Source of the DNA: Thalassospira sp. TSL5-1
GTDB taxonomy: Bacteria > Pseudomonadota > Alphaproteobacteria > Rhodospirillales > Thalassospiraceae
DNA length: 64,000 bases
Assembly: GCF_001907695.1 (NCBI RefSeq)
Contig: NZ_KV880638.1
Span: forward strand, 310,882-374,881
Direction of reading: 5' to 3'
Of the stretch, positions 1,070 to 16,658 are shown one piece after another. The translations under genes and the position numbers were made by a program. The notes below the pieces were generated by a model. That model worked only from the letters and a program-made list of their open reading frames with translations, did not search any database and was not told where the DNA came from. Each line of letters opens with the position of its first letter. The stretch's first letter is position 1.

Positions 1070-2458
1070 TTGGCCCGCCTGTTACGCCGCTTTGTGTTTT
1101 TCGGGTTGCTCGCCCTGGTTGCGCTGGCACCCTTGCCTTATGGCAGTAATCTTCCCTGGGCGTGGTCTTTGCTGTCTTTGTGGGTGGGTATTCTGGTGGT
1201 GCTTGATGCCATTGCCTGCCTGATCTCCCCGCCAGAGGGAGAGCGGCGGTTTTATGCCCGCATTAAAATCCCCATGATCCTGTTTTTCATCGTTGTCGCC
1301 TGGATTGTGGTGCAGGCCACCCCCGGCCTTGTGCCCGCCATTGCCCACCCCATCTGGGCAGAGGCCAGTGCGCAACTGGGCATTCCGCTCGCCCCGCGTG
1401 TGACCATCGCCCCGGACCTGACATGGGATGCGCTGATGGTGCTGCTGGCCTATGCCGGGGTGTTCTGGTTGTCGGCCCGCTATGGCCGCAGGCGCGAAAA
1501 TGCCTCATTGATGCTGAAATTCTTTGTCCTGGTCTCGACCGCTTACGCTGTTTATGGCCTGGTGGTGTATTTCGGCGGCTGGGAAACGGTGCTGTGGTAT
1601 CACAAAACCGCTTATCGCGGCGATTTGACCAGTACCTTTATTAACCGCAACAGCTATGCGACCTATGCGGCGATCGGCCTGGTTGCCTCGCTGGTTTATC
1701 TGGTTAAAATCCTCGCCCGCGATTTCCGCGATGGCGGCACCTCCCGCCAGATTGCGCGGAAAATGCTCGATGGCACCCTGGTCAGCGCCTGGCTGCCGCT
1801 GGTTGGCGTGCTGACCACCGGCACGGCCCTGATGCTTACGCATTCGCGGGCCGGGTTTGTGAGCGGGATGATCGGGGTTTTTGTGGCGCTGCTGGGACTG
1901 CGCTTTGCCCGAATTTTACCGGTCCGGTTTGGTAACGGGTTGATTGCCGGGGCGGTTTTGCTGGCGGTGGGCGGGTTTGCCATTAGTGGTGGCGGATTGG
2001 AAAAACGGTTTGGGTATCTTGAAGGGGATCAGCAAACTCGTTTGCATCTTTATGATGCCGTATCGGCTGCTGGCACACAGGCGCTATCTACAGGGTATGG
2101 CTATGGAACCTTTGAACCCGGTTTTCGGCCATTTAAGGATTTGCCTTTAAGCGGTTTAACCTGGAGCCTTGCCCATAACAGTTATCTGGAATTTTATTTT
2201 GGCGCCGGGCTTTATGGCCTTGTCATTATTATGTGTGCTTTTGTCTGTATTTTTTTCGGGCTTGTGAAGGGGGCCTTTTTAAAGGCGCACGATACGGCTT
2301 ATTTAATAACGGCTGTTTCGGCCCTGACGATTGTGGGGCTGCATGCCCTGACAGATTTTAGCATTCAGATGCCAGCGATGGGGGCGGCATTGGTGTTTGT
2401 TGCGGGGCTTGGCTATGCCAGGATTATTGTTGATACAAAAGGAAGATCACGCCCCTGA
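1070..2458 (+). CDS. O-antigen ligase/polymerase-like membrane protein (Wzy_C family)
   Basis: This 462-residue polytopic membrane protein has about ten to twelve hydrophobic helices. A large loop between two helices begins near residue 170 and holds NRNSYA (192-197). The Wzy_C signature THSRAG (257-262) starts the next conserved block. The family joins or polymerises lipid-linked glycans on the periplasmic face of the inner membrane. The start is TTG at 1070, supported by the strong Shine-Dalgarno GGGGAGGAG at 1058-1066; no ATG fits as well. The gene is followed by a 277-bp gap holding a terminator-like hairpin and the first of two epimerase-like genes. A second, unrelated Wzy candidate lies at 13.0-14.2 kb, so this one could be the ligase or serve another polymer. 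Substrate cannot be read from sequence. Confidence 0.85.
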   Translation: MARLLRRFVFFGLLALVALAPLPYGSNLPWAWSLLSLWVGILVVLDAIACLISPPEGERRFYARIKIPMILFFIVVAWIVVQATPGLVPAIAHPIWAEASAQLGIPLAPRVTIAPDLTWDALMVLLAYAGVFWLSARYGRRRENASLMLKFFVLVSTAYAVYGLVVYFGGWETVLWYHKTAYRGDLTSTFINRNSYATYAAIGLVASLVYLVKILARDFRDGGTSRQIARKMLDGTLVSAWLPLVGVLTTGTALMLTHSRAGFVSGMIGVFVALLGLRFARILPVRFGNGLIAGAVLLAVGGFAISGGGLEKRFGYLEGDQQTRLHLYDAVSAAGTQALSTGYGYGTFEPGFRPFKDLPLSGLTWSLAHNSYLEFYFGAGLYGLVIIMCAFVCIFFGLVKGAFLKAHDTAYLITAVSALTIVGLHALTDFSIQMPAMGAALVFVAGLGYARIIVDTKGRSRP

Positions 2459-2596
2459 TATTTGCGAAAACACCAATTGGTATGTTCTGCCAAGCGGTTT
2501 TATGTCTGGAGTGATATAAAATAAATTCCGGTTTCTTCTTTTCCTATCCTAATGGATGGTTGTTGTTGCACCCGTAATTTGCTTTTGAACTTTCGT

Positions 2597-2640
2597 CCAC
2601 ACACGAAGTGCGCCTGCTGGCCATTTCGGTGTGGATTTTT
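2597..2640 (+). terminator. Terminator/attenuator-like hairpin in the leader of the first epimerase-like gene
   Basis: CCACAC (2597-2602) pairs with GTGTGG (2629-2634), CGAAGTG (2604-2610) with CATTTCG (2622-2628, one G-U pair), and GCC (2612-2614) with GGC (2619-2621) around a TGCT loop. An A and six T residues follow directly. This is the shape of an intrinsic terminator, about 140 bases after the upstream stop and 100 bases before the next start. The same structure is repeated at 3983-4026. It may end the upstream transcript or act as an attenuator. Confidence 0.6.
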
Positions 2641-2735
2641 TATTTCCGCAACATGACAGGGTATTAACCGAACCGGTCGCAGGTGATGCGTCCGGTGTTT
2701 GGTCGTGCCCTGTTGTCTGTAAAGGGATATAAACG
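2597..2735 (+). repeat. Leader repeat, copy 1 (139 nt, direct repeat with 3983-4121)
   Basis: This 139-nt leader aligns without gaps to 3983-4121, at roughly four-fifths identity by eye. A 37-nt block (2618-2654 versus 4004-4040) is identical and covers the 3' arm of the hairpin, the T-run and what follows. The Shine-Dalgarno region GTAAAGGGATA is also kept. The similarity continues into the coding sequence, so gene and leader were duplicated together. Confidence 0.85.
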
Positions 2736-3731
2736 ATGGCCTGGTTGACATACGATATTACGGGGAAGCGGGTTTATATTGCCGGTCATAGCGGCATGGT
2801 TGGTTCGGCGCTTGTGCGCCGGTTTGAGCAGGAAGATTGTACAATTTTAACCCGCATGCGCAGCGAAATGGACCTTTTGGATAAGGCATCGGTGACAGCG
2901 TGGCTGATGCAGGAAAAACCTGATGTTGTGATTATTGCGGCGGGCAATTCCGGCGGGGCAATTGCCAATTTGAGCCGTGGCGAGGATTTTATGTATGAAA
3001 ACCTTGCCATAGCCAGCCACCTTATACACGGCGCCTATGAGGCCGGGGTGAAACAGCTGATTAACATTGCTGGCCCGTATATTTGCCCCGAAGATACGTT
3101 TTTACCGACGTTGGAGCGGGGGATTACGGGCGAACAGCTTAACCGTTCATGTGAAGCCTCATCTGCTGTACGGCTTTCTGCCTTGAAACTCTGTCAATTC
3201 TATCATCGGGAATATGGCGTTTCTTTTAGAACTGTTGTTCCGTTTGAAGTTTATGGGCCGGGGGATAATTTTGGCCCGCTTTCGAACCGGGTTATTCCGG
3301 CGATTATTCGTAAAGCAGTGGAAGCAAAGCAGGCCAATGCAGGGCATATGGAGCTTTCGGGTGTTGGCACGGAAGTACGTGAATTCCTGTATGTTGATGA
3401 TTGCGCCGATGCCATTGTTACCTTTCTGAAATATTATGGTTACAAGGGCCCGGTTAATATTGCGACCAGTTTTAATTTCGGTGTCAGGCTCGCGGAGCTA
3501 GGCTATATGATTGCCGATCTTGTCAGGTTTGACGGGCGGATTAAATTTTTGCGCAAAACGCAAGCTGGCAGCGAGGAGCGACGCCTTTGCGGGCAGACAT
3601 TACGGTCTATTGGCTGGTATCCGCAATGCAGCCTTGAAATGGGGATTCGTAAAACGCTGGACGCGTTTCTTAAGGGCAATTATCGGGAATATGACATGAA
3701 AAATGAACGTTTCAGGTTATGCCCGGCCTGA
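2736..3731 (+). CDS. GDP-L-fucose-synthase-like extended SDR protein, catalytic residues lost (copy 1)
   Basis: The 331-residue protein has the Rossmann motif IAGHSGMVGSALVRR (about 15-29) and the family blocks VYGPGDNF and REFLYVDD, so it belongs to the GDP-L-fucose synthase (Fcl/WcaG) branch of extended SDRs. Against E. coli Fcl recalled from memory, the catalytic Ser107-Tyr136-Lys140 triad reads Gly113-Ser142-Arg146. The epimerase acid/base residues Cys109 and His179 read Tyr115 and Arg185. The segment between these sites aligns without gaps, so this is not an alignment slip. NADP binding looks possible, but normal epimerase/reductase chemistry does not. It may be a regulatory or scaffold pseudoenzyme, or use other chemistry. 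ATG at 2736 has AAAGGGA upstream. It is a tandem paralogue of 4122-5084. Confidence 0.82.
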   Translation: MAWLTYDITGKRVYIAGHSGMVGSALVRRFEQEDCTILTRMRSEMDLLDKASVTAWLMQEKPDVVIIAAGNSGGAIANLSRGEDFMYENLAIASHLIHGAYEAGVKQLINIAGPYICPEDTFLPTLERGITGEQLNRSCEASSAVRLSALKLCQFYHREYGVSFRTVVPFEVYGPGDNFGPLSNRVIPAIIRKAVEAKQANAGHMELSGVGTEVREFLYVDDCADAIVTFLKYYGYKGPVNIATSFNFGVRLAELGYMIADLVRFDGRIKFLRKTQAGSEERRLCGQTLRSIGWYPQCSLEMGIRKTLDAFLKGNYREYDMKNERFRLCPA

Positions 3732-3870
3732 TATTAAATGCGGTGGGATTAAAGCGTTTCTTTTTTAACAAGAGCAAAATGTATTGATCGAAACTGATTA
3801 ATACAGTCCTTGGGGGGCTGGCTTATCGCGCCCTTGCCTTTTGCGAGACGGGCCGCATGGTGCCGTTGTT

Positions 3871-3920
3871 TTTAACCCGTCCCAACTCGTCCGAACCTGT
3901 CCGAACCTGTCCCAGTCCGT
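3871..3920 (+). repeat. Degenerate 10-bp tandem repeat (five units)
   Basis: Five successive 10-base units read TTTAACCCGT, CCCAACTCGT, CCGAACCTGT, CCGAACCTGT and CCCAGTCCGT. Units three and four are identical and all end in GT. They lie in the 390-bp gap between the two epimerase-like genes. The period matches one helical turn. No function is known. It may be replication slippage or a phased protein-binding site. Confidence 0.6.
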
Positions 3921-3942
3921 TCTTAATGAGTTGTCTTCATAG

Positions 3943-3965
3943 AAAACGGGTATAAGACCCGTTTT
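3943..3965 (+). terminator. Small terminator-like hairpin after copy 1
   Basis: AAAACGGGT (3943-3951) and ACCCGTTTT (3957-3965) form a perfect nine-base-pair stem with loop ATAAG, and the 3' arm ends in four T residues. It lies 18 bases before the second leader hairpin, so transcription reaching here from copy 1 meets two hairpins in a row. Confidence 0.55.
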
Positions 3966-3982
3966 GCTTACAATTAGTCTGT

Positions 3983-4121
3983 CCACATACGACGTGCGCC
4001 CGTTGGCCATTTCGGTGTGGATTTTTTATTTCCGCAACATTGCAGGACGTTAACCAAACCGGGTGCAGGGCATGCGTCTGGTGGCTGGTTGTGTTTTGCT
4101 GTCCGTAAAGGGATACAATTA
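3983..4121 (+). repeat. Leader repeat, copy 2, with the same terminator-like hairpin (3983-4026)
   Basis: This is the second copy of the 139-nt leader. The hairpin is kept: CCACAT pairs with GTGTGG (one U-G pair replaces C-G), CGACGTG pairs with CATTTCG with one mismatch, and GCC pairs with GGC around a CGTT loop. ATTTTTTA follows. Of four substitutions in the 5' arm and loop relative to copy 1, two are in the loop, one keeps pairing and one creates a mismatch. The 3' arm and T-run are unchanged. Confidence 0.8.
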
Positions 4122-5084
4122 ATGGCTTACGATATTGCAGGTAAACGTGTTTTTGTTGCCGGTCATAGTGGCATGGTTGGCTCGGCGCTTGTGCGGCGGT
4201 TGGAGCAGGAAGATTGTACAATTTTAACCCGCACCCGCAGCGAGCTGGACCTTTTGGATCAGGCGGCGGTTATGGAATGGTTGAAACAGGAAAAGCCTGA
4301 TGTTGTGATTATTGCGGCGGGTAAGTCCGGCGGGTCCATTGCCAACCGTAACCGCCCGGTGGAATTTATGTATGAAAACCTGGCCATTGGTATGCATTTG
4401 GTGCGGGGCGCATATGAGGCCGGGGTGGGCAAACTTGTGAATATTGCGGCACCGCATATTTACCCGGCAATGGCGTATGTGCCGACCAACGAACAAACAA
4501 TGATGAGTGGTCCTCTTCATGATTCCTATAAATCTTCTGCGATGGCGCGTCTTGCTGTTCTGAAGCTGTGCGAGTTTTATCATCAGCAATATAATGCAAA
4601 TTTTACCACTATTATTCCGGCCGAGATTTATGGACCGGGGGATAATTTTGATCGGCTGTCAGGCCGGGTGATGCCCGCCTTTATCCGCGAGGCGGAAGAA
4701 GCAAAGCAGGCCAAGGCCCCGTATATGATATTGCAGGGATTTAGCACGGCAGTCCGCGAGTTTATTTATGTGGATGATTTCGCCGATGCGGTTGTTACCG
4801 TTATCAAGCGTCAAAAGGGATGTTACCCGGTGAATATTGGTGCGGGTTTCAGCATTACGTTGCGGGAGCTTGTTTACAAGGTTGCCGATATTGTGGAGTT
4901 TGAAGGACAGGTCAAATTTTTGCAAAAAATGCCTGCCGGGGTGGCAGAACGTTTTCTTACCTCAACAAAAGCCAGATTTTTGGGCTGGCAGCCAAAATAC
5001 AGCCTTGAGGAAGGAATTCACAAAACCTGGCAGGCTTTTCTGCAGGGCAATTACCGGGAATATGACCTGAAACTGTTTGGTTAA
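4122..5084 (+). CDS. GDP-L-fucose-synthase-like extended SDR protein, catalytic residues lost (copy 2)
   Basis: The 320-residue paralogue of 2736-3731 has the Rossmann motif VAGHSGMVGSALVRR and the blocks EIYGPGDNF and REFIYVDD. Positions matching E. coli Fcl Ser107/Tyr136/Lys140 are Ala110/Ser139/Arg143, and those matching Cys109/His179 are His112/Arg182. Tyr-to-Ser, Lys-to-Arg and His-to-Arg are shared with copy 1, so the loss came before the duplication. The frame is open upstream to 4017, but that part is the duplicated leader. ATG at 4122 matches the copy 1 start and has AAAGGGA upstream. Continued conservation of fold and length argues for a selected role. A strong terminator follows. 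Confidence 0.82.
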   Translation: MAYDIAGKRVFVAGHSGMVGSALVRRLEQEDCTILTRTRSELDLLDQAAVMEWLKQEKPDVVIIAAGKSGGSIANRNRPVEFMYENLAIGMHLVRGAYEAGVGKLVNIAAPHIYPAMAYVPTNEQTMMSGPLHDSYKSSAMARLAVLKLCEFYHQQYNANFTTIIPAEIYGPGDNFDRLSGRVMPAFIREAEEAKQAKAPYMILQGFSTAVREFIYVDDFADAVVTVIKRQKGCYPVNIGAGFSITLRELVYKVADIVEFEGQVKFLQKMPAGVAERFLTSTKARFLGWQPKYSLEEGIHKTWQAFLQGNYREYDLKLFG

Positions 5085-5092
5085 TGTGAGGT

Positions 5093-5137
5093 CCGGTCTG
5101 ATATTATTGCCACAACACAAATATCAGGCCGGTTTTT
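5093..5137 (+). terminator. Intrinsic terminator after copy 2
   Basis: CCGGTCTGATAT (5093-5104) pairs with ATATCAGGCCGG (5121-5132), twelve base pairs with one U-G pair, and TTTTT follows. It ends rightward transcription just before the convergent minus-strand operon. Confidence 0.85.
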
Positions 5138-5163
5138 GTTGTATCTGATATTTTCGGATTACT

Positions 5164-5916
5164 TTAGGTCTGGGATTTTTGTAGTAACTGCTTTAGTTTT
5201 TCGTTCAAGAGCATCCAGGCAAATTTGCTATTGGTGACCAGATACCGCTTCCACATGCGGCGGGGTTCCTGAATGACGCGAAACAGCCATTCAAGGCCCG
5301 ATTTTTGCATCCAAATCGGCGCGCGCTTCACCTTGCCCGCCACCACATCAAAGGTGCCACCTACCCCCATAACAAAGCTTACACCGAGCTGTTCCCGCCA
5401 GCGATTTATGAAGTTTTCTTTTTTGGGGGAGGTAATGGCAACGAACAGTAACTGCGCGCCTGATGCGCGCACTTTGTTGACCATTGCTTGTTCATCATCC
5501 CAGAAATAGCCGTGATGATAACCTGCCAGTTTAAGGTCTGGATATAGTGTTTTAACCCGTCTTGCTGCTTCACTTACGACGTCATCATGTGCACCTAGCA
5601 GATAGACGGAATAACCTTTGCGTGCACTCATCCTTAGTAATTCATGGAACAGGTCTATCCCTGCGACGCGCTCTGGCACATCATGTCCCAATATTCGTGC
5701 GCCTAGTACGACACCCATGCCATCAATATTGATGATGTCACACTCGCGAACCGATGCAGCTAGTTGAGGGTCCTTCTGCATATTAACAATTTTGGCGACG
5801 TTGATTACTACGTGTTGGGTAAAGTGATTAACGGCAACGGCGTCGTCGATCCGTTGAACGGTTTCACCCATGCTGGCAACGTCCATCGGGCAATTGAGAA
5901 GCTCAATCCTGTTCAT
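5164..5916 (-). CDS. WecG/TagA/CpsF-family glycosyltransferase (GT26)
   Basis: The protein has about 250 residues from ATG 5916. Family motifs in order are NVAKIVNMQKDP, INIDGMGVV (with the family Asp), YLLGAHDDVV, ITSPKKENFI, GVGGTFDVVAGKVKRAP and GLEWLFRVIQEPRRMWKRYL. WecG and TagA transfer ManNAcA or ManNAc to a lipid-linked sugar at the cytoplasmic membrane. The same operon encodes WecB and WecC, which make UDP-ManNAcA, so ManNAcA transfer is a reasonable inference. The frame is open upstream to 5997, but ATG 5916 forms an ATGA overlap with the stop of the preceding gene, which decides the start. It is the last gene of the operon. Confidence 0.88.
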   Translation of the reverse strand: MNRIELLNCPMDVASMGETVQRIDDAVAVNHFTQHVVINVAKIVNMQKDPQLAASVRECDIINIDGMGVVLGARILGHDVPERVAGIDLFHELLRMSARKGYSVYLLGAHDDVVSEAARRVKTLYPDLKLAGYHHGYFWDDEQAMVNKVRASGAQLLFVAITSPKKENFINRWREQLGVSFVMGVGGTFDVVAGKVKRAPIWMQKSGLEWLFRVIQEPRRMWKRYLVTNSKFAWMLLNEKLKQLLQKSQT

Positions 5917-7124
5917 TGGGTTTTCTCGCGGATAAGAAAGGGTCCTTCTGTGGCAGCTACATGATGGTTGTAAAATGCCAACGCATAATAGGACCATGCC
6001 TGTGTCCAGCGGATATAGTTAATCCTGTTCGTAATCCATCGGGACTTTTGATAGATAAACTGTTTTTTTTGGGGCAAATACATCAGGTTAATTGCACGCT
6101 GTACGACCTTGTCACTCAGTAGCCTGTCTTCAGGTCGGCTCCCTACCTTGAGCAAGGTAAAAACCGCTTGGGCGAAACTGTGCATGTCGAGCGGATAAGT
6201 TGAGTGATTATAGTATTTTGCGGTGCCGTCGGCTTCAAAAAATGTACTAACATAATAGCGGTATCCTTTTTCAATACAGCAATCAAATTCATTGCTGTCT
6301 AGTACATCGCGCAGCATGCAAAGCGCTTCAAGATTATATCCGGTATGAAAACCATCAATAAACTGATGATGGTGGCGGGCCCCATACATCCACGAGCCAT
6401 CTTCTGCCTGTTCTGACACAGATAGCCGGGCCACTTTCAGGGCTTGCTGCACCAATGCATCATTGTTTTGCTGGCGTCCGGCAAAAGCACACCACGCAGC
6501 CCCCCACAGGCTGGCATTATGTACAAATGCATTTTCGCCCGGGATATAGGCATAAAAACAACGCTCATCTGTTTCGGTATAGAGGTGCCTGGAAATGAAA
6601 TGGGCAGAATCCAGTGCTATCTCGATTAACCGAGGGTCGGAAATCAATTCACCAAGTTCATACAATGCACGCGCCACATAGACTGTGGTAATGATATTGG
6701 GTTTGCCTGCGGGCACATAAAAAGCACGTGCCTGCCAGTCAAAATGATACCCCCAGCAGCTATGGTGCCATTGAGCGATGTCACTATTTTGTGTTAGCAG
6801 CCAGTCGGCCAGTTGACGGGCTTCTTCCAGATAAAAGCCGTCGCCGGTTCGGCGATAGTCTTGTAGCAATCCGGAGATAAATAGACCTATTCCTTTGGGA
6901 TTGCGTTTTTTCGGGACCATCAGGAAAGGACGTAAATTGACCGGTGATCGTTTGTTTAATTGCAGCCAGGCCAGACGTGCAAACGCGCTATGCTTAAGCG
7001 GTGTTGCTTGCAGCACGCGACTGTTCAGAGAATCAAAGGGATCATATCCGGCATAGTTATCCGCCCGGATGTCATCCAGAAGATCTCGATTGAGGCTTGG
7101 AAGGTCTGTCTCAGTTCGGAGCAT
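5913..7124 (-). CDS. Probable (alpha/alpha)6-barrel protein of polysaccharide biosynthesis, function unknown
   Basis: This is a soluble protein of about 400 residues without signal peptide or membrane helix. It has repeated helical hairpins rich in aromatic residues and motifs such as GLFISGLLQDYRRTGDGFYLEEA, WGYHFDWQARAF, NASLWGAAWCAF and DGSWMYG, as in six-hairpin glycosidase-like folds. I do not recognise a characterised family or catalytic residues. Genes of this kind are met beside two-domain dehydrogenase/Gfo-Idh genes in polysaccharide clusters, as here. ATG 7124 overlaps the upstream gene by 14 bases. An in-frame TTG at 7142 is the alternative, and neither has a strong ribosome-binding site. 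It is coupled by ATGA to the glycosyltransferase after it. Confidence 0.6.
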   Translation of the reverse strand: MLRTETDLPSLNRDLLDDIRADNYAGYDPFDSLNSRVLQATPLKHSAFARLAWLQLNKRSPVNLRPFLMVPKKRNPKGIGLFISGLLQDYRRTGDGFYLEEARQLADWLLTQNSDIAQWHHSCWGYHFDWQARAFYVPAGKPNIITTVYVARALYELGELISDPRLIEIALDSAHFISRHLYTETDERCFYAYIPGENAFVHNASLWGAAWCAFAGRQQNNDALVQQALKVARLSVSEQAEDGSWMYGARHHHQFIDGFHTGYNLEALCMLRDVLDSNEFDCCIEKGYRYYVSTFFEADGTAKYYNHSTYPLDMHSFAQAVFTLLKVGSRPEDRLLSDKVVQRAINLMYLPQKKQFIYQKSRWITNRINYIRWTQAWSYYALAFYNHHVAATEGPFLIREKTQ

Positions 7125-9291
7125 CGAAGACACTCTGATCAACCTGCATGGGTGCGCCTATTGTCATCGATTCTACCGCCATCACTGTTGCCAAACTGGT
7201 TGCCATCAAACAGTCGTAATCGATACACGCGATACCGGTCTGTAAACTTTCTAACCAGGTCGCGATCATCGAATTCTGACCTTTATCTTGCACTCCCAGC
7301 TTTATTTTTTGTTTGTGCGTATCTCCCTTAAACAACGAGATTTCCTTGAAATCGTTTATCTGAGCCGAACGCCCACCGCCAAATACTTCGATATATTCCT
7401 TTGCCATCGCTTTGGAACCGTCGGCAGTGTAGGTGATATTCGCTACGCTACCATTCGTGAAGGATAGAGCAAGGCACAAATTGTCATTTAGCAGGGCAGA
7501 TTTTTCAGCCTTGCTACTACCGATCGCATATATGCTTTTCACGTTGCTGCTAACCAGTGCCGAGGCCAGATCGATGAAGTGGCAGCCTTCGCCAATCATG
7601 CGGCCCCCGCCTGCTTGTGGGTCCTGACTCCAGTGATTGGCAGGGATATACCCCGCATTGATCCGAATATTGACCACTAACGGGCTTTGTACGCCGCTAA
7701 AGTGTTCGATGACTTTCTTTGTAGCGGGCGCGAAGCGGCGATTAAAACCCACCATTAATTGGGCTTTGCTGCTTTTGTTGTAGGCGGTATGGATCTCTGC
7801 TAACTCATCAATATGCATTGCCAGAGGCTTTTCAACATACACATGTTTGGCGGCGAGTAATGCATCGCGAACGGCAGGTCCGTGCGTATCATGGCGTGTT
7901 GCAATGACGATTGCGTCGCTATCGTTCTGAAGCAGTTCATCAAAGTGTGCTGCACAAAAAACAAAGCCGAACTGTTTGGCAACACCCTTGGCTGAACGGC
8001 CGCTGGCTGTTACCAATCCATCGAAACTAACTTTGCCATTAGCCTGCATGGGGGGTAGCAAACTCGCGGTTGCATAATTTCCTGCGCCATAAAACGAAAG
8101 TTTAATCTTGTCGCCACTAACGGTGGCAGGTTTGATTGCAATACGAGATGAGTCAGTATTGCTGTAGGACTCGGGGTTATATTGTAGCAAGATACCGAGA
8201 TAAGGTTCCGTTTTGGTGCCTTCGATTAGATTATAGGCGCTAGCCGCCTCTTTTACCTGAAAACGGTGTGTAATCAGGCTTTTGACGTCTAGTTTCCCTT
8301 GTGAGACCAGCTCAAGGAAGGTTTCCATATTGCGCTGCTCGGTAAACCGTACATAGGCTAGCGGGTAGTCATTACCATTTTCTTCATAGAAGGGATCATA
8401 GCGGCCAGGCCCGTAAGATCGGGAAATAACTACATTGATTTCTTTCTTGAAATAATTTTCGCGTGGAATGTCCATGCGTACGGCGCCAACGACCACCACA
8501 CGTCCCTTTTCGCGGGTAACTTCACCACACATTTCTATAATGGAATTGCTGGAACTACCTGCACATACGAGTACGCCATCCACACCATGTCCTGCTGTTA
8601 TCGCTCTGCAGACACTTGCGGCATCTGTGCCGGCTACCAGACCAATGGCGCCGAAACATTCGGCCTTCTTAATTAGCGATGTATCCAGATCAGTCGCAAT
8701 GACCTGACAACCATTGGCCTTGAGTAACTGAACAGTGATTTGTCCGAGCAAGCCCAGGCCGACAACCAGAAATGTTTCTCCCAGTTGCGGTTTGGACAAG
8801 CGTACGCCTTGCAATGCGATGGAGCCAACAGTTGTGAAGGCTGCTTCTTCATTACTGACATTCTCTGGTACTTTGACAATCAGGTTTTTGGGTACGGTGA
8901 TAAACTCCGCATGGTTTGCATAATTAGCACCACCACACGCAACACGATCACCTGGTTGTAACCCTTCAACCAGACCTCCGGCAGCGATCACCGCACCTGC
9001 ACAGCTATAGCCAAGCGGTGAAGGGGCATCCAGACGTGAAGTGACGGTTTGAAGTGTTTTTCTGAGTCCTTCCGTCTTGATCTTACTGATTACCTGCCTG
9101 ACCAGATCTGGGCGCGCCTTTGCTTTCTGCAACAGGCTCTTTTTTCCCATGTCGATCTTAGTTTTTTCGGTGCCAGCGCTGATGATAGAGACACTATTTT
9201 GAACCAGTACAAATTTGTCTGTCAGGGTAGGGACCGGGACGTCAGTGACTTCAATAATGCCTGTGCGAAGGGTTTGGGTAACTTGTTTCAT
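7111..9291 (-). CDS. Two-domain oxidoreductase: zinc-type alcohol dehydrogenase (MDR) fused to Gfo/Idh/MocA
   Basis: The 726-residue protein has two enzymatic halves. Residues 1 to about 350 are an MDR dehydrogenase with a GroES-like part (PLGYSCAGAVIAAG, GDRVACGG) and the nucleotide motif VVGLGLLGQITVQLL. From about residue 390, after a short linker, comes a Gfo/Idh/MocA dehydrogenase with LSFYGAGNYATASLL, VEKPLAMHIDELAEI and FNRRFAP. Both halves would bind NAD(P). The fusion is common in polysaccharide operons, but its substrate is not established to my knowledge. A sugar oxidation/reduction on an activated or lipid-linked glycan is the inference. ATG 9291 overlaps the CapK stop by ATGA. 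Base composition returns to the local norm at the start of this gene after the AT-rich block. Confidence 0.85.
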   Translation of the reverse strand: MKQVTQTLRTGIIEVTDVPVPTLTDKFVLVQNSVSIISAGTEKTKIDMGKKSLLQKAKARPDLVRQVISKIKTEGLRKTLQTVTSRLDAPSPLGYSCAGAVIAAGGLVEGLQPGDRVACGGANYANHAEFITVPKNLIVKVPENVSNEEAAFTTVGSIALQGVRLSKPQLGETFLVVGLGLLGQITVQLLKANGCQVIATDLDTSLIKKAECFGAIGLVAGTDAASVCRAITAGHGVDGVLVCAGSSSNSIIEMCGEVTREKGRVVVVGAVRMDIPRENYFKKEINVVISRSYGPGRYDPFYEENGNDYPLAYVRFTEQRNMETFLELVSQGKLDVKSLITHRFQVKEAASAYNLIEGTKTEPYLGILLQYNPESYSNTDSSRIAIKPATVSGDKIKLSFYGAGNYATASLLPPMQANGKVSFDGLVTASGRSAKGVAKQFGFVFCAAHFDELLQNDSDAIVIATRHDTHGPAVRDALLAAKHVYVEKPLAMHIDELAEIHTAYNKSSKAQLMVGFNRRFAPATKKVIEHFSGVQSPLVVNIRINAGYIPANHWSQDPQAGGGRMIGEGCHFIDLASALVSSNVKSIYAIGSSKAEKSALLNDNLCLALSFTNGSVANITYTADGSKAMAKEYIEVFGGGRSAQINDFKEISLFKGDTHKQKIKLGVQDKGQNSMIATWLESLQTGIACIDYDCLMATSLATVMAVESMTIGAPMQVDQSVFDAPN

Positions 9292-10613
9292 GGTTTTGAT
9301 ATGTTTTGAATGAGTAATTGAAATTTTCTATTCATGCTCAGTTCCAATTCATCTACTTCTTTTACAGATATAATCATTTTTCCAGATAATTTTTTATTGA
9401 AATTATCAATTAATTGTTTTTTTGCGCTCTCATTCCATCGATACCCTGGGACGATGTGAATGCTCAGATGACCTATATGATTTTGATGATATTGGATTCC
9501 ATTTATTTTTGAATAGATAGAATCATGTAGATTGAGAGCAGTAGTTGTGACTGTCGTGCCGTCAGAAAGATAAATTTTATCCCCGTTCCAACGGCCTCTT
9601 ACATTTTTAAATGTTAATCCAATATGACCGCAATCAGGACAAGTTATTCCGACAAATTCTGCATAGTCACCTGTTTTATATCTAATAAAAGGCGTTTTGG
9701 TATTTATGTATCCTGTTCCGACTAATTCGCCGAATTCTCCCGGGGTTTTTACTGGTCTTCCAAATGAGTTAATGATTTCAACGTGCCCATAGAATGGATT
9801 AGAGTGATAGTTTTCACACTTAATTCCCTCGTGTGCTAAGATTAATTTCTCGCTATGTCCATAGAATGTAAACATACGTAGACCAAGTTGTTCTTGGATC
9901 AGGGTTTTCTGCGGAATGAGGATGTTTTCGCTTCCACATAAAAATGCCTTCACATTTTCCGGTTTTTTGCTGCTTTCAAGCCAAAACTTCGATAAAATAA
10001 ACGCTGCACTTGGATATGCGTGAATAAACTGAATTTTATTTTTTTCGATATATTCTGTTATTTTTAATAAATATTGTTTCGTGAGGTTGAAATTACTAAA
10101 GCAAACTTGCCGAAGCAAGGGATCTACTTCAATATTATTCTCTCCTAAAATGTGATTTCGTAAAACTGCTCTCCATGAAATTTCTTTTGAGTATCCAGAT
10201 TTTTCCCAGCCGCTTGTCATCCAAAACCATTCCCAACCCTTTCGTGATTTATCAATATAAAATGACAATGGTTTTCCAGATGTTCCACCTGTTGTCATAA
10301 GGTCAGCATTTTTTTTGCTGGTAATAATGGATTCTTTTGATTTTATTACAATGTCTTTATCGATGAATGGAAGGTCAGTATGTGGTGAGTTGAAATCATA
10401 ATTTTCATAAAATACGCATTTTTTTGCATTCTGATAAGTTTTTTTTAGGATTTTATAAGTATACTCTTCAATGTATTTATTTTTATTCGATGTTTTTAAG
10501 AACTCATCGTTAATCTTCATTGCTCGTCTGTAACTTTCCCCGAAAACAAATTTTTTGGGAAGGTAAGATGCAGTAGTGGAAATTAAAAAATTGATATCGA
10601 TCTTTTTTCTCAT
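9288..10613 (-). CDS. CapK/PaaK-like adenylate-forming enzyme of capsule biosynthesis
   Basis: The 441-residue protein resembles phenylacetate-CoA ligase and CapK proteins. The AMP-binding loop TTGGTSGKP lies at 107-115, TFYGHSEKLILAHEG in the middle, and a CPDCGH cysteine pair near 325 precedes the hinge-like GRWNGDKIYLSDG. The family activates carboxylates as adenylates. In capsule clusters the acceptor is generally unknown, and attachment of an acyl or amino-acid group to the glycan is plausible. The gene is very AT-rich and lysine/asparagine-rich, unlike flanking genes. It is the last member of the AT-rich block, and its stop overlaps the next start by ATGA. A 133-base gap separates it from the GT4 gene. 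Confidence 0.82.
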   Translation of the reverse strand: MRKKIDINFLISTTASYLPKKFVFGESYRRAMKINDEFLKTSNKNKYIEEYTYKILKKTYQNAKKCVFYENYDFNSPHTDLPFIDKDIVIKSKESIITSKKNADLMTTGGTSGKPLSFYIDKSRKGWEWFWMTSGWEKSGYSKEISWRAVLRNHILGENNIEVDPLLRQVCFSNFNLTKQYLLKITEYIEKNKIQFIHAYPSAAFILSKFWLESSKKPENVKAFLCGSENILIPQKTLIQEQLGLRMFTFYGHSEKLILAHEGIKCENYHSNPFYGHVEIINSFGRPVKTPGEFGELVGTGYINTKTPFIRYKTGDYAEFVGITCPDCGHIGLTFKNVRGRWNGDKIYLSDGTTVTTTALNLHDSIYSKINGIQYHQNHIGHLSIHIVPGYRWNESAKKQLIDNFNKKLSGKMIISVKEVDELELSMNRKFQLLIQNISKP

Positions 10614-10746
10614 TTAAATTCTCTGTGTATTATCAGTGAATAAATTAATTTATATTGGTATTTTAGCAGTTGACAATACTCGGAAGTCTTTTCACCATTG
10701 TATGGTGATTTCACATCCTGTCATGTCGAAAAATATCTTTCATAAT

Positions 10747-11856
10747 TTAGTTGGAGCTTCTATCGTCTATTTTAATTGATTCTTGATAAATTTCTACCAA
10801 TTTTTCGGCCATTTTTGAGATGCTAAATTTTTCTTCATACATAGTTTTTGATTGAACCCCCATTTGGGTACGTAGTTTTTGATTCTTGGCCAAACTTATT
10901 AAGTTTCTTGTCAAAGCCTGTGTGTCGCCGGGTTCAATTAGATAGCCATTTTTGTCATTAACAACAGCTTCCGGAATGGATCCTACATTTGACGCAATAA
11001 TCGGAAGACCAGCATTCATTGCCTCTAGAATGCAGAGAGGAAGGCCTTCTTTATAAGACGGTAAACATAAAATATCACTTGATGACATGTGCTTTCGAAC
11101 GTCTTCAGGCGAAATCCAGCCATAAAATTCTATGTTTTCGAATTCCTGGGCCATTTCTTGGTAGAAACGTTTTTCTTTTCCTCCGCCGCAAATTTTTAAC
11201 TTCATATTCGGGATTTTTTTTTGGGTTTCAATAAAAGATTTAATTAGTGTATCAAGTCCCTTGTTTTGTGACGTTGTACCACAGAAAATTATATTGGTTC
11301 CCTGGTGAGTAGACGCTGGAAGTGCAAGGTTTGGGACACCGTTATTTAGTTCTCTGACTTCTATTTTTGAAAAATTATCCTCTACCCAAATGCCCCAATT
11401 TTTTGATAAAACTAAAATTATGTTCGCTTTTTCGAATAATATTTGGATGGATTTTTTTAGCATTCGGGGAGATTTTTGAAAAAACATCGAAAACCCACCA
11501 CCATGTAAATGTATTATATATGGGGTATTAGTTATGCGACATATGTAGGAAATTAAAATTTTCCGATAACAGCTACCTCGTGATGCAAGGTGTATATGTG
11601 CAATATCAACTTTACGGAACGCGCAAAGAATAAAAGTTTTTATTAGAGAGTATATAAAAATGTGCACTGATTTATATAAGGCTGTGTCGTTTTTTGTGGC
11701 TAAAAAGGAAAGATGAACATCTGACTCTTCCTCCTGGAAGTAACTTTTTAGGTTGCGTTGTACTTGAGAAATCCCTCCGAAGCTTGAGATGGACGGGCCT
11801 ATGTGTAGTACTCTTATAGTTTTATTAATTTCCGGTTTAATTTTCTTTGCTTTCAT
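10747..11856 (-). CDS. Glycosyltransferase family 4
   Basis: The protein has about 369 residues from ATG 11856, which overlaps the upstream stop by ATGA. The frame is open to 11883. It has a GT-B fold: N-terminal RVLHIGPSISSFGGISQVQ, then the C-terminal nucleotide-sugar half with IIFCGTTSQNKGLDTLIKSF, YGWISPEDVRKHM and the EX7E-type region EGLPLCILEAMNAGLP, followed by GSIPEAVVNDKNGYL. Such retaining transferases add one sugar to the growing lipid-linked repeat on the cytoplasmic side. Donor and acceptor cannot be deduced. It is AT-rich like its neighbours. Confidence 0.9.
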   Translation of the reverse strand: MKAKKIKPEINKTIRVLHIGPSISSFGGISQVQRNLKSYFQEEESDVHLSFLATKNDTALYKSVHIFIYSLIKTFILCAFRKVDIAHIHLASRGSCYRKILISYICRITNTPYIIHLHGGGFSMFFQKSPRMLKKSIQILFEKANIILVLSKNWGIWVEDNFSKIEVRELNNGVPNLALPASTHQGTNIIFCGTTSQNKGLDTLIKSFIETQKKIPNMKLKICGGGKEKRFYQEMAQEFENIEFYGWISPEDVRKHMSSSDILCLPSYKEGLPLCILEAMNAGLPIIASNVGSIPEAVVNDKNGYLIEPGDTQALTRNLISLAKNQKLRTQMGVQSKTMYEEKFSISKMAEKLVEIYQESIKIDDRSSN

Positions 11857-13022
11857 AGGGAATAAATATTTTTTATATGCCAAGAGCTATAGGCAAAACG
11901 AAAAGCTGCCGACAGAAGAAGAGAAAAAAATATCATTGTTGGAGTTGGTGAATAAAAATATGTACCGCCAATCAGCGAAAAAAACAATATGGAAGATAAC
12001 GCATTGGATTTTAGTATTAGTTTTGAGTTTCCGGCAGAAACCAAATAATTAGCATAGGGAAGCTGTAATTGTGAAAAGAAGAACCATGAGAGGCACAAAG
12101 AAATATAAATGTACCCGTTTTCTGGAAAATTTCCTTTCTGATAATGGAAGAAAATTGAAATTAAAGTGTAAGAAAATGGGATGATTAACGCAGTGCACTT
12201 CAAGTTTTTATTTCGGAACTCATTGAAAATTTTTGTTTTTTTTGATCCTGAGCAGTTTGCCATTTGGGGAAGATATATATTTGACAGTAACCGGCCGCTT
12301 AATGATGCAACACTGATGACCATTACTAGTTGCCCGGAAAATATAATGATACTCGATTGAGCTCCATAAATTGAAATTAATGTTGGTGATAACATTAGCG
12401 GACCGAGACTACATATGTTTGATAAAGAGTACTGTACGTATTCTAATCTATTGACCTTCGAACGGGTAGAGTATTTCATAAACGTGATATATATAAAAGG
12501 TGTTAGAGATATTGCTGGGATAAGTAGAATGTAGTCTTTTTTTATTGAATAGGTATGCGTTGTTATTGACAAAATTGTAAATATTAGTATTGCGAAAATC
12601 TCAAGTGTTACGAGTAGTTTTTTCTCTTGATTTGATATTAGGTAAGTTCGGGATAGTTGGTAAAATCCCCAAGTTATTGCCCAAAGTTCTATTGGGTAAG
12701 TGTTTTCTAGTTTTAGTATTGTTTTTAGTGTTTCTGATGCTGTTGATATTAATAATGATATGATTAAATAATCTGCGCAAATGAATGAAAATGTGCCTTG
12801 GCGGATTGATTTTTCTCTGGAGAATAATACGTTAGCCATCGACGTAGCTGTTGTTGTTACAATTAAACTTGCTATAGTTAACCCTAAAATATATTGAGTA
12901 ACTGTAGTTGTGCCGAGCTCGCTGCTCGGCGCAAGAATGCTTGGAATTGTACGTTGAAAACCTGGTGATATTACAATAATAAAATTTGTAATTGCTGAAA
13001 TGAGAAATGAAATTTTAAACAC
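11853..13022 (-). CDS. Polytopic membrane protein, probable Wzx-like flippase
   Basis: The protein has about 389 residues with ten or more hydrophobic helices and no recognisable catalytic motif. Position between wzy and a glycosyltransferase, overall length and helix spacing suit an oligosaccharide-lipid flippase. This rests on context more than on sequence. No ATG is available near the N-terminus. GTG at 13022 follows AGGTG by nine bases and is preferred over GTG at 13034; either overlaps the 3' end of wzy. It is strongly AT-rich. Confidence 0.65.
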   Translation of the reverse strand: MFKISFLISAITNFIIVISPGFQRTIPSILAPSSELGTTTVTQYILGLTIASLIVTTTATSMANVLFSREKSIRQGTFSFICADYLIISLLISTASETLKTILKLENTYPIELWAITWGFYQLSRTYLISNQEKKLLVTLEIFAILIFTILSITTHTYSIKKDYILLIPAISLTPFIYITFMKYSTRSKVNRLEYVQYSLSNICSLGPLMLSPTLISIYGAQSSIIIFSGQLVMVISVASLSGRLLSNIYLPQMANCSGSKKTKIFNEFRNKNLKCTALIIPFSYTLISIFFHYQKGNFPENGYIYISLCLSWFFFSQLQLPYANYLVSAGNSKLILKSNALSSILFFSLIGGTYFYSPTPTMIFFSLLLSAAFRFAYSSWHIKNIYSL

Positions 13023-14232
13023 GTGTGACTGCACCTAAAAAGCTGACGATCCATGTTGCAACGAAAGCCACGTCAGAAATCATTTTTATTTTAGATACAA
13101 TAGAATCTTTTTTTGTTTTAAAGCAAAATAACAGCGCCATTGAATAATATACAAACATTGGCGGCGTCGGCAATAACCCATTCCTGGTTGAGAGGTATAA
13201 GTTGTATAGGAAATATAGGAACAATATGTATAGAATATGAGATTTGTTTTCTAAAAATGCTATTCTTAAATTTTTATATACAGCGCCCATTGCGAGTGTG
13301 ATAATTATGACGCCGCTTACCCCGAAGTCTAGATAATAGTTAAATGGGGCCGCTACTGATTGAGCTGTTAGTCGTGATGGCAGGTATACGTCTCTTAAAT
13401 AATCAGATCCATGGTGGCCGTATGATGGGTTTATAATAGAAAAATACTCGCCAAATGTATATCTTCCGTTAAGTTGTTGGTGCCCCGCTATGTCACTTAC
13501 AAACGAACCAAAATTTAGAGCTCCTATTAAATCTCCATGAATAATCCAAAGTGATAATTGTAATAATGATAGTCCACTCCCGATATTTTGAGATCCGTAT
13601 CTTATAATCGCAAGAAGCGAGATAATAGAGAAAGCTGAAAATAATAAAAGAAAGAAATAAATCGTAAATTTATAAAATTTAATTCTTTTGTCAAACATAA
13701 ATATGACAAACATAGAAAAGGTCATAAGTAAAAGTTCAGATCTGTTCAGCATTAATAAATTAAACAAATAACCTATTATGATAATAGGGATAACCTTCTT
13801 TGCTAGGTTTCGGTGGTAGGCGTAAAATGAAAGTATTGCGAGTAGAGTTATAAGCCGAGCTGGGTAATCTATTAGGCCACCTAAGTTTTGACCAATTGAT
13901 CTAATTAAAGGGTTGTTACTTGTTAATGGGATATCGCCAAGGATATATATTTTTAAAAAAATGAACAGCAGACTAAAGACGACAAGGAAGTACAGTCGTG
14001 AAAAAGATATACTTTCATGATGATCTGCAGGTATTTTTTTTGTAATGTTAGGTGATATGTAGTATCCTGTTATTAATGATGTGATGAATATGAAAAATAT
14101 ACCATAATATTTTGTTATATCTGTGGCGTAGTACCCCCAAGATATTTCGTTTTTTATTTGAGACAAAAGTACTTGCGCCGAGAAGAAAAGCAGAAATAGA
14201 AGTGGCGCTGTGATTTTTTTTATATTTATCAT
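13015..14232 (-). CDS. O-antigen/oligosaccharide repeat polymerase (Wzy-like)
   Basis: The 405-residue polytopic protein has about eleven hydrophobic helices. A large polar loop in the last third contains GRYTFGEYFSIINPSYGHHG and YLRDVYLPSRLTAQS, the arrangement of Wzy polymerases that extend lipid-linked repeats in the periplasm. Primary sequence of Wzy is poorly conserved, so the call uses topology and gene order. ATG 14232 overlaps the wecC stop by ATGA. It is AT-rich, inside the foreign-looking block. Confidence 0.75.
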   Translation of the reverse strand: MINIKKITAPLLFLLFFSAQVLLSQIKNEISWGYYATDITKYYGIFFIFITSLITGYYISPNITKKIPADHHESISFSRLYFLVVFSLLFIFLKIYILGDIPLTSNNPLIRSIGQNLGGLIDYPARLITLLAILSFYAYHRNLAKKVIPIIIIGYLFNLLMLNRSELLLMTFSMFVIFMFDKRIKFYKFTIYFFLLLFSAFSIISLLAIIRYGSQNIGSGLSLLQLSLWIIHGDLIGALNFGSFVSDIAGHQQLNGRYTFGEYFSIINPSYGHHGSDYLRDVYLPSRLTAQSVAAPFNYYLDFGVSGVIIITLAMGAVYKNLRIAFLENKSHILYILFLYFLYNLYLSTRNGLLPTPPMFVYYSMALLFCFKTKKDSIVSKIKMISDVAFVATWIVSFLGAVTRV

Positions 14233-15497
14233 TTTTTTTCATTTATTTTATTTATGTGCCGGCAATATGATTTGAATTTTGTTTGAGGTTTTGTAATTAT
14301 TTCAGAGAACTCCCTGTGGTTAACTAGTTCAATTATTATATCTGAATTTTTTATTGCGTCTGTTAGGGTTGATGTGTTGAATGGATTTTTTTCATTTGAA
14401 ATATTAGGATCCACAACTTTTATTGTGCCGTCAAAATTTTCTGATACTTTTTTTATTATTTCCAAAGGGGGGCTTTCTCTGAGGTCGTCTATGTTCGGTT
14501 TAAATGTTATTCCGAGAAATGATATTGTTATTTTCTTATGGTCATTTATTTTTTTTGTTTTTAAATAAACTTTAATTGTTCGTATTATGTCTTTTGAGAC
14601 CCACTCTTTTTTTCCGTCGTTTACTCTCCTTGCCGTCTCAATTAATTTACTCTCACTTGGTGCGCTATGTACTATGAACCAAGGATCTACTGCGATACAA
14701 TGCCCGCCGACGCCGGGTCCGGGCTGAAGAATGTTGACACGTGGATGACGATTGGCAAGCGAGATCAACTCCCAGACATTAATGTCGAGTTTGTCGCAGA
14801 TCATCGATAGCTCGTTGGCAAAGGCAATGTTCACGTCGCGAAAGCTGTTTTCGGTTAGTTTGGCCATTTCGGCGGTACGGGCATTGGTGACGACACATTC
14901 GCCCTGCACGAAAGTTTTATATAGCGCACATGCCAAAGCAGAGCATTTTGGTGTCATGCCGCCCACAACACGATCATTCCTGACCAGTTCATGCAGAACC
15001 TGACCGGGTAATACCCGTTCCGGGCAATGGGCGATGCGAATATCCGAATTTTCACCCTGGCTTTGTGGAAAGGTCAAATCTGGTCGCGCTTCTGCGAGCC
15101 ATTGCGCAATTTTCTCGGTTGTACCGACGGGCGAGGTTGATTCGAGAATAACAAGATTTCCGGGCATAAGGACTGGTGCAATTGCTTTGGTGGCGGCCTC
15201 TATATAGGATAAATCCGGCTCATGATTATCTCCCTTAAAAGGGGTTGGCACGGCGATTAAAAAAGCATCAGCGGGTTCTGGCAACGTGGTGGCGCGCAGG
15301 TAACCTTCGGTTACGGCTGCATGCACAACCATATCAAGGTCAGGTTCCACAATATGAATTTCACCACGATTGATGGTATCGACCGCGTTCTGGTTTACGT
15401 CGACGCCAATCACCCTGATTTTGCGTGATGCAAATACAGCGGCCGTGGGTAGCCCGATATAGCCAAGGCCAATTACGGATACGGTATTGAATTGCAT
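14229..15497 (-). CDS. wecC: UDP-N-acetyl-D-mannosamine dehydrogenase
   Basis: The 422-residue enzyme oxidises UDP-ManNAc to UDP-ManNAcA with two NAD+. It has the N-terminal Rossmann motif IGLGYIGLPTA (9-19), the central ENSFRDVNIAFANEL block, the catalytic-cysteine motif GVGGHCIAVDP (Cys267), and the C-terminal UDP-binding part with LGITFKPNIDDLRESP. ATG 15497 has AAGGAAG upstream. The coding sequence is GC-rich up to about residue 265-275 and abruptly AT-rich after it, so the gene appears to be a recombinant joining a resident 5' part and an incoming 3' part just after the catalytic motif. It lies 42 bases after wecB. Confidence 0.95.
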   Translation of the reverse strand: MQFNTVSVIGLGYIGLPTAAVFASRKIRVIGVDVNQNAVDTINRGEIHIVEPDLDMVVHAAVTEGYLRATTLPEPADAFLIAVPTPFKGDNHEPDLSYIEAATKAIAPVLMPGNLVILESTSPVGTTEKIAQWLAEARPDLTFPQSQGENSDIRIAHCPERVLPGQVLHELVRNDRVVGGMTPKCSALACALYKTFVQGECVVTNARTAEMAKLTENSFRDVNIAFANELSMICDKLDINVWELISLANRHPRVNILQPGPGVGGHCIAVDPWFIVHSAPSESKLIETARRVNDGKKEWVSKDIIRTIKVYLKTKKINDHKKITISFLGITFKPNIDDLRESPPLEIIKKVSENFDGTIKVVDPNISNEKNPFNTSTLTDAIKNSDIIIELVNHREFSEIITKPQTKFKSYCRHINKINEKK

Positions 15498-15539
15498 AGT
15501 TCTTCCTTGCGATTGGAGCTTACGCGCGTACCTGGTTCG

Positions 15540-16658
15540 TTAACGCAGTGAAGTAAGGATGCGTTGGCAAGCCTTGCCGTCTCCGTATGGATTATGTGCC
15601 AGCGTCATGTGTCGATAGGCATTTTCGTCTGTCAGCAGGTTATTTACTTCTGTCGTAATGGTATTTGCGTCCGTTCCTACCAATTTAACGGTTCCGGCTG
15701 CCACGGCCTCCGGTCTTTCTGTTGTTTCCCGCATAACAAGTACGGGTTTGCCTAATGAGGGGGCTTCTTCCTGTACACCGCCAGAATCTGTTAGTATCAG
15801 GGTGGCCTGGGTCATCAGATAAACAAATGGTAAATAACCCTGTGGCGGGATTAGATGAATGTTTCCCACTGCTTTAAGCAGACGATTAACTGGTTCCTGC
15901 ACATTTGGATTGAGATGAACCGGATAAATGATCTGACAATCGGTGTGTTGTTTGGCAATATCCTTTAAGGCATTGCAAATGTGTTCAAAGCCCTCGCCAA
16001 AACTTTCCCGGCGATGGCCAGTAACCAGGACCAGTTTTTTTGCCGGGTCGATCATTGGATATTGGGTCGCCAGTTGGGCTTTTAACGCCGCATCCCGGTC
16101 AATTTTGTTGCGAACCCAAAGCAACGCATCAATAACCGTATTACCTGTTACGTGAATATGTTGGTCGGGAATATTTTCTGCTAGCAGGTTTGCTTTGGCA
16201 GTTGCTGTGGGGGCAAAATGATGGCGGGTGACGGCACTTGTCAGTTTGCGATTGGCTTCTTCCGGCCAAGGTGCGTAAATATTGCCCGTTCGCAATCCTG
16301 CTTCAACGTGGCCCACCGAAATTTGTTGATAATATGCCGCAAGCGAGGCCGCAAAAGTGGTCGTCGTGTCACCATGGACCAACACGAGATCCGGCTTGAA
16401 GGTTTCGAGTACGGGTTTTATGCCAAGCAAGATCGCAGTGGTTATATCGTTAAGGCTTTGTCCCGGTTTCATGATGTTGAGGTCATAGTCTGGCGTGATG
16501 TCAAACAGATGTAATACGTGATCAAGCATGTCACGATGTTGCGCTGTAACACAAACCCTGGCGTTAAAGCGCGAATCAACTGCCAGCGCTTGTACCAGTG
16601 GCGCCATTTTAATTGCCTCCGGGCGAGTGCCAAATACGGTCAGTACTTTTTGGGTCAT
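15540..16658 (-). CDS. wecB: UDP-N-acetylglucosamine 2-epimerase (non-hydrolysing)
   Basis: The 372-residue enzyme makes UDP-ManNAc from UDP-GlcNAc in the cytoplasm. Signature blocks are [36 protein letters not shown] and [22 protein letters not shown], and the length is typical. Its product feeds WecC directly downstream. The gene is of normal composition for the window, outside the AT-rich block. Confidence 0.96.

Follow-up and report, generated by a model that had tools for sequence, protein, structure and literature searches.

The gene pair and its surroundings

We analysed a 64,000-nucleotide stretch of the genome of Thalassospira sp. TSL5-1 (hereafter the window), in which two tandem genes for proteins similar to GDP-L-fucose synthase (GFS; Fcl, WcaG or GMER) lie beside an exopolysaccharide gene and a strain-variable polysaccharide cassette (Table 1). 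The second gene most likely starts at the ATG given in the table and not at GTG 4017, the start of the longest ORF, judging from the orthologue in genome G011, whose ORF begins at the matching ATG, and from the AAAGGGA sequence located just upstream. Since each copy is followed by its own 3' hairpin, each has the appearance of a separate unit.

Table 1. Features of the locus, with positions counted from the first letter of the window
Feature	Position	Strand	Remarks
Wzy_C / O-antigen-ligase-type membrane protein, exopolysaccharide gene adjoining the pair	1070..2458	+	Pfam PF04932
Leader of copy 1	2590..2735	+	hairpin TCCACAC...GTGTGGA, then U-run, invariant TTTCCGCAA, second stem, AAAGGGA before ATG
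Copy 1, GFS-like protein	2736..3731	+	331 aa; catalytic positions G/Y/S/R/R
Hairpin 3' of copy 1, possible terminator	3943..3965	+	fold z -3.1
Leader of copy 2	3976..4121	+	homologous to copy 1 leader
Copy 2, GFS-like protein	4122..5084	+	start ATG 4122; catalytic positions A/H/S/R/R
Hairpin and U-run 3' of copy 2, terminator-like	5093..5132	+	fold z -5.0
Strain-variable polysaccharide cassette (WecG-type transferase, glycosyltransferase, polymerase, WecC, WecB, others)	5164..16658	-	
WcaJ-type undecaprenyl-phosphate glucose phosphotransferase, cassette far flank	16686..18083	-	TIGR03023 above cut-off

Within the cassette, a single ORF (7111-9291, minus strand) fuses a zinc-type alcohol dehydrogenase with a GFO/IDH/MocA oxidoreductase. 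Two further minus-strand ORFs (5913-7142 and 11853-13034; 409 and 393 aa) had no Pfam or NCBIfam match at E 0.001, and another (9288-10613, minus strand) encodes an acyl-CoA-ligase-like protein, whose best NCBIfam match, the DVU_1553 family, was below cut-off.

The altered active site and the history of the clade

The sequence-only reading of this locus held that both proteins keep the Rossmann motif and have lost all the catalytic residues of Fcl. Alignments to known structures (8du0, and 1bsv and 1e6u of Escherichia coli), together with residue mapping by MAFFT (which excluded identical sequences and L020, of over 450 aa), bore this out. The residues S107, S108, C109, Y136, K140 and H179 are replaced by G, P, Y, S, R and R in copy 1 and by A, P, H, S, R and R in copy 2, and the catalytic positions of both copies align to E. 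coli Fcl with no intervening gap, as had been claimed. The active site thus contains no intact Tyr-x3-Lys and Ser in these alignments, but S/R and G or A. The predicted fold is that of the extended SDR/epimerase family (PF01370), with the Rossmann glycine motif present. AlphaFold models of the two copies (pLDDT 90.4 and 87.6; the input alignment included ordinary Fcl sequences) both fold as GFS and superpose on the E. coli enzyme over 303-306 residues at 1.4-1.8 A (VIA-align, whose output gives ranges and not residue pairs), the identity in structural alignments being 36-39%. The NCBIfam model for GDP-L-fucose synthase (NF047922) gave 260.8 and 317.7 bits, below its curated cut-off of 500.

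Loss of Tyr136 is confined to one clade. The residue is missing from nine of 214 aligned sequences (the two copies and 212 homologues among the best 120 matches listed for each), and all nine belong to this clade, whose 12 rows split off with 100/100 support in a maximum-likelihood tree of 51 proteins; the midpoint root falls on the clade branch (0.64 on the clade side, 0.32 on the other). Ten full-length members were tallied, excluding the partial P0002 and P0003 as well as P0001, P0004 and P0006, which are close or identical to genome members. In all ten, Ser107 is replaced by Ala or Gly, Tyr136 by Ser or Ala, and the epimerase pair Cys109/His179 by His or Tyr and Arg, while Lys140 is changed to Arg in nine and retained only in G021. 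No member, therefore, has the Ser-Tyr-Lys triad (S107, Y136, K140) of Fcl. The S-x3-R pattern is not universal in the clade, given the relatives with Ala136 and the Lys140 of G021.

Of the 156 positions conserved at ≥90% in 205 Fcl sequences, the ten members keep 64, are mixed at 56 and have lost 36. None of the 27 such positions in residues 3-62 was lost, versus 12 of 29 in residues 104-140 (regions picked after viewing the list). The glycine-motif positions, Arg36 and Arg209 are retained; Asn133 is lost in ten of ten and Trp202 in nine, Lys283 has become Arg in all ten, and Pro108, Arg179, Glu282 and Arg283 are new clade invariants at former active-site positions. Arg12, which we take to be an NADP-site residue, is also lost throughout, so that cofactor binding is uncertain. 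We further assume that Trp202, Arg209 and Lys283 of E. coli correspond to Trp208, Arg215 and Lys282 of human GFS (GFUS). These human residues hold GDP, and the human C116A and H186A variants have activity below detection, according to the accessible part of PMC12362431. With the GDP contacts changed and these human variants inactive, GFS activity of the clade proteins is very unlikely, to judge from their residues. Ordinary SDR redox chemistry also appears unlikely, because Ser107 is lost too, and usually Lys140.

The inference that loss of all catalytic residues leaves no enzyme is nevertheless too strong. In the part of PMC7949155 available, MlghC of Campylobacter jejuni is an active GFS-fold GDP-heptose C4 reductase without epimerase activity, which has Tyr109/Arg179 and Phe136 and keeps Ser107 and Lys140. 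By analogy with this enzyme, substitutions at 109, 136 and 179 do not by themselves prove an enzyme dead. Copy 1 resembles MlghC, as described there, in its GFS fold, in the Tyr109/Arg179 pair and in the absence of Tyr136. The clade differs from this active member of a GDP-heptose pathway in that Ser107 is lost in ten of ten members and Lys140 kept in one; the combination of Ser107 and Lys140 with Tyr109/Arg179 was not found in it.

On the tree, P0007 and G021 diverge earliest; each, found as a single gene, already encodes a protein without the residues, which indicates that the loss is older than the duplication, as the sequence-only reading had maintained. Part of its reasoning does not stand. 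It took the shared Tyr-to-Ser change as a mark of common descent, but position 136 is Ala in P0007, in G021 and in the copy-1 relatives of G026, G011 and P0005, whereas the copy-2 branch and copy 1 of the window have Ser there; Ser136 is therefore probably convergent. The Lys-to-Arg and His-to-Arg changes are indeed common to both copies, and Arg179 is invariant in the clade, although G021 keeps Lys140. Judged by eye on the tree, at least three switches from His to Tyr or back took place at position 109.

Eight intact clade genes occur in five of 29 genomes of the genus (two each in G000, G026 and G011, one each in G023 and G021), all of them open from start to stop. A sixth genome, G027, contains a truncated relic of 80 residues with an in-frame stop (L051, about 10231-10611, minus strand), whose leader hairpin has decayed. 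A sample of 385 genomes from across the class, which covers part of its species and had up to five candidates scored per genome, contained no clade protein outside G000 at E≤1e-84. A search of 5.8 billion proteins yielded, among the matches listed, at least seven clade clusters, five full-length (573-617 bits) and two partial (426 and 501 bits); the next protein, at 391 bits, has an intact site (best 120 of 8000 scored candidates). Organism names accompany three of the seven clusters, and all are Thalassospira, the genus from which this clade of GFS descendants is so far known. A plasmid search gave two records with short matches at 60-80%. The Wzy_C-type wzy of the window was matched at E≤1e-40 in eight of the 29 genomes, which include all the carriers; the wzy of G016 and G005 is more distant (60% and 50%), and neither genome has a clade member. 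Since these two lack the gene and G027 has only the relic, it is dispensable for some such loci.

Selection, genomic context and the leader

Among the orthologues of G000, G026 and G011, dN/dS was 0.20-0.35, and for copy 2 against G023 it was 0.15-0.17. Neutrality was rejected in six of six orthologue pairs, which are not independent, with fewer nonsynonymous changes (p 2e-6 to 6e-5). Both proteins, whose frames are open, are kept intact by purifying selection, and the earlier claim of two intact copies holds. The ratios of neighbouring genes are lower (wzy 0.10-0.16, wcaJ 0.06-0.11, wzc 0.02-0.06), and normal Thalassospira Fcl gave 0.07, from the one pair of 21 with computable dS; dS was not computable for the other 20, for one clade pair and for three wzy pairs. 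In copy 2, residues 101-160, the old active-site stretch, are near neutral (ratio 0.91, from a total of 34 changes in three dependent pairs), against 0.04-0.33 outside it; the same residues of copy 1 gave 0.23.

The clade genes of G000, G026, G011 and G023 sit between wzc/wzy and the variable cassette, and the single gene of G021 occupies the opposite end, before the WcaJ-type gene. In G026 and G023, manC (L044 14977-16407; L048 13437-15002) lies directly 3' of the clade genes, the cassettes being otherwise mostly unrelated. The four cassettes compared (that of G023 only up to the end of L048) share few genes with one another, and no enzyme gene common to all four was found in this comparison. 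ManC, present in three of the four, is 93% identical between G026 and G023 and 47% identical to that of G011; a WecB-type protein matches at 47% between G000 and G026 and one transferase at 39%, the remaining matches being partial (22-33%, one of 39% over 54 residues). Because of this recurrence and the 93% identity, the clade genes may be linked to GDP-mannose. Gmd (TIGR01472, E≤1e-60) was not detected in G000, G026, G023 and G021; it is present in G011, within an adjoining ManC-Gmd-Fcl set, all above cut-offs. A further Fcl was not found in G000, nor, among the matches listed, in G026, G023 and G021. Given the absence of Gmd from four carrier genomes and the largely different cassettes, the clade genes are independent of the GFS substrate and of any single repeat unit.

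G000, G026 and G011 share a block that starts at the end of wzy (about 2200; about 1800 in G011) and runs to about 5090, with an identity of mostly 90-98% that drops locally to 66% at 2401 (G026) and 84% at 4001 (G011). It ends near the hairpin 3' of copy 2, beyond which identity drops to about 40%. Since dS in the two genes is 0.09-0.15, against 0.50-0.95 in wzy, wzc and wcaJ, and given the high identity, the block spanning the pair at the core/cassette border was recently exchanged by recombination.

All eight clade genes are preceded by an element of ~146 nt (TCCACAYACGA..TGCGCC....TTTCKGTGTGGATTTTTTATTTCCGCAA, then a second stem), with AAAGGGA before the ATG in six of the eight. Its 25-nt core, allowing up to three mismatches, occurs seven times in the 29 genomes, every time before a clade gene; the G023 leader escapes this search owing to one extra T. 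A covariance model (109 candidates scored per genome) gave nine strong matches in these genomes, namely the eight genes and the relic (E 3e-8), the next having E 0.057. In the 385 class genomes (up to eight scored per genome, stricter filters) the two leaders of G000 pass and none elsewhere reached E≤1e-3. The normal Fcl gene of G011 lacks the leader, the model matching only the two clade genes of that genome. When the model was run on the window together with 61 further loci (58 of them included because of an ordinary Fcl-type match; L121-L158 excluded), one weak match lay outside the window (L077, E 0.65). The exact core was not found in viral contigs.

The sequence conservation of the leader is clear, and the formation of an RNA structure is likely. 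Hairpin I folds in 8/8 leaders (z -2.9 to -6.7), that of the G027 relic being decayed (z -2.0), and 94.1% of leader cells are paired, a value reached by 0/500 shuffles. The covariation is weak. Two-sided changes were detected at three pairs, all in the second stem and none in hairpin I, and 120/500 shuffles reach that number; further pair types were reached by 491/500 and the covariation score by 16/500. With its repeated TCCRCA half-sites, the leader may also be a DNA operator. Copies 1 and 2 are close in their first ~60 codons too (dS 0.34-0.45, versus 0.6 to over 2 further on), and part of the likeness of their leaders is therefore due to recent exchange. The 5' ends of copies 1 and 2 and of the G023 gene show unusually low synonymous divergence, as if exchanged between copies, and the first 40 codons of G023 are nearer to copy 1, yet its body groups with copy 2. 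In G021, whose coding divergence is mostly saturated, hairpin I nevertheless matches the copy-1 and copy-2 leaders at 47-51/57 positions (46/58 for G023), with just 38-44/84 beyond it. The upstream gene in G021, a sigma-54 response regulator, is divergent, so this hairpin cannot be its terminator. A predicted 104-aa ORF on the other strand overlaps the G021 leader.

The one Rfam match in 2400-5200, to SAM_alpha and below threshold (E 0.49; 18.4 bits versus 36), lies inside the coding region and was put down to chance. A promoter and terminator scan gave counts under the shuffle means, the leader hairpin not being among its predictions, and a sigma-54-type promoter before the leader, judged by eye, was rejected on spacing.

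Possible functions of the pair

Taking these observations together, we lean narrowly towards the view, the most economical one, that the pair are GFS descendants retained for a binding or regulatory role that lies outside sugar-nucleotide conversion; very probably, they no longer make GDP-fucose. This view is based on the residue loss, the retained predicted fold, the purifying selection, the private leader, and the finding that the genes are independent of Gmd and largely so of the cassette. The proteins, probably dimers, would bind a partner, NADP(H), or a nucleotide or diphosphate ligand, and would in this way adjust the exopolysaccharide machinery, their dose being set through the leader. 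Several observations weaken it: the activity of MlghC with Tyr109, Arg179 and Phe136 (in the accessible portion of its report), constraint below that of the neighbours with a near-neutral stretch in copy 2, the existence of loci without the gene, the presence of ManC in three of four cassettes, and the loss of Arg12. The sequence-only reading had left the choice between selected pseudoenzymes and new chemistry in a polysaccharide locus; the early loss, the intact copies, selection and the locus agree with it, and its argument from the shared Ser falls away. It overlooked the leader, the recombination block and the fact that the genes are independent of Gmd. Literature searches found nothing on GDP-L-fucose synthase as a pseudoenzyme or on short-chain dehydrogenase pseudoenzymes with a nucleotide sugar, and, among the matches listed for Thalassospira exopolysaccharide clusters, nothing on this pair by title or abstract start.

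The MlghC precedent (PMC7949155, as far as available) also speaks for an enzyme of altered chemistry, for instance one that reduces or epimerises a different nucleotide sugar at a site remodelled around His/Tyr109, Arg179, Arg209 and Arg283. The retained Arg209 and the Lys283-to-Arg change could still allow diphosphate binding, and the invariant new residues and the recurrent ManC point the same way. We regard such an enzyme as a rather unlikely, if serious, alternative, considering the uniform loss of Ser107, Tyr136 and Asn133, that of Lys140 and Trp202 in nine of ten members, the inactive human C116A and H186A variants (PMC12362431, part available), the repeated switching at position 109 (seen by eye) and the lack of an enzyme gene common to the four cassettes. 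The position at the cassette boundary, the G027 relic with its in-frame stop, the relaxed stretch of copy 2 and the common recombination block would all suit a passive remnant, in which the fucose-synthase gene of an older cassette was stranded at the boundary and carried along by recombination. This is improbable in view of the eight open genes, a dN/dS below 1 (p ≤ 6e-5), the clade-specific invariants, a hairpin retained in 8/8 leaders and decayed in the relic, and the two copies kept by three strains.

A separate question, silent on protein function and compatible with any of these readings, is whether the leader simply came along with the tandem duplication as a terminator or DNA operator. 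We hold this to be a real prospect, falling a little short of an even one. The alike first ~60 codons are what gene conversion would give, hairpin I lacks two-sided covariation, the half-sites also suit a DNA-binding protein, and the G021 leader diverges beyond hairpin I; on the other side stand the conserved G021 hairpin I despite saturated coding divergence, its divergent upstream gene, whose transcript it cannot end, and the separate 3' hairpin of copy 1.

Because leader and gene pair exclusively, and because SDR-fold proteins have turned RNA-binding or regulatory in CSP41 and NmrA (according to sources available in part), the dead GFS could be an RNA- or operator-binding autoregulator recognising the private stem-loop of its own leader. 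It would perhaps sense NADP(H) or a nucleotide sugar, and the paralogues would control one another's dose and modulate exopolysaccharide output under any cassette. We give this idea little credence. The proteins share with CSP41 and NmrA an epimerase/SDR-type fold, which in them too would be re-used outside sugar chemistry, and with pI 6.1-8.8 they are not strongly basic. If true, it would be a bacterial parallel to CSP41 derived from a fucose synthase.

The clade represents a small, clean case of enzymes that lost their chemistry, duplicated and stayed under selection, each gene with a private leader. It lends itself to testing how sugar-nucleotide enzymes may turn into regulators in exopolysaccharide loci. 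Annotation of these genes as GDP-L-fucose synthase would probably mispredict L-fucose in the strains that carry them.
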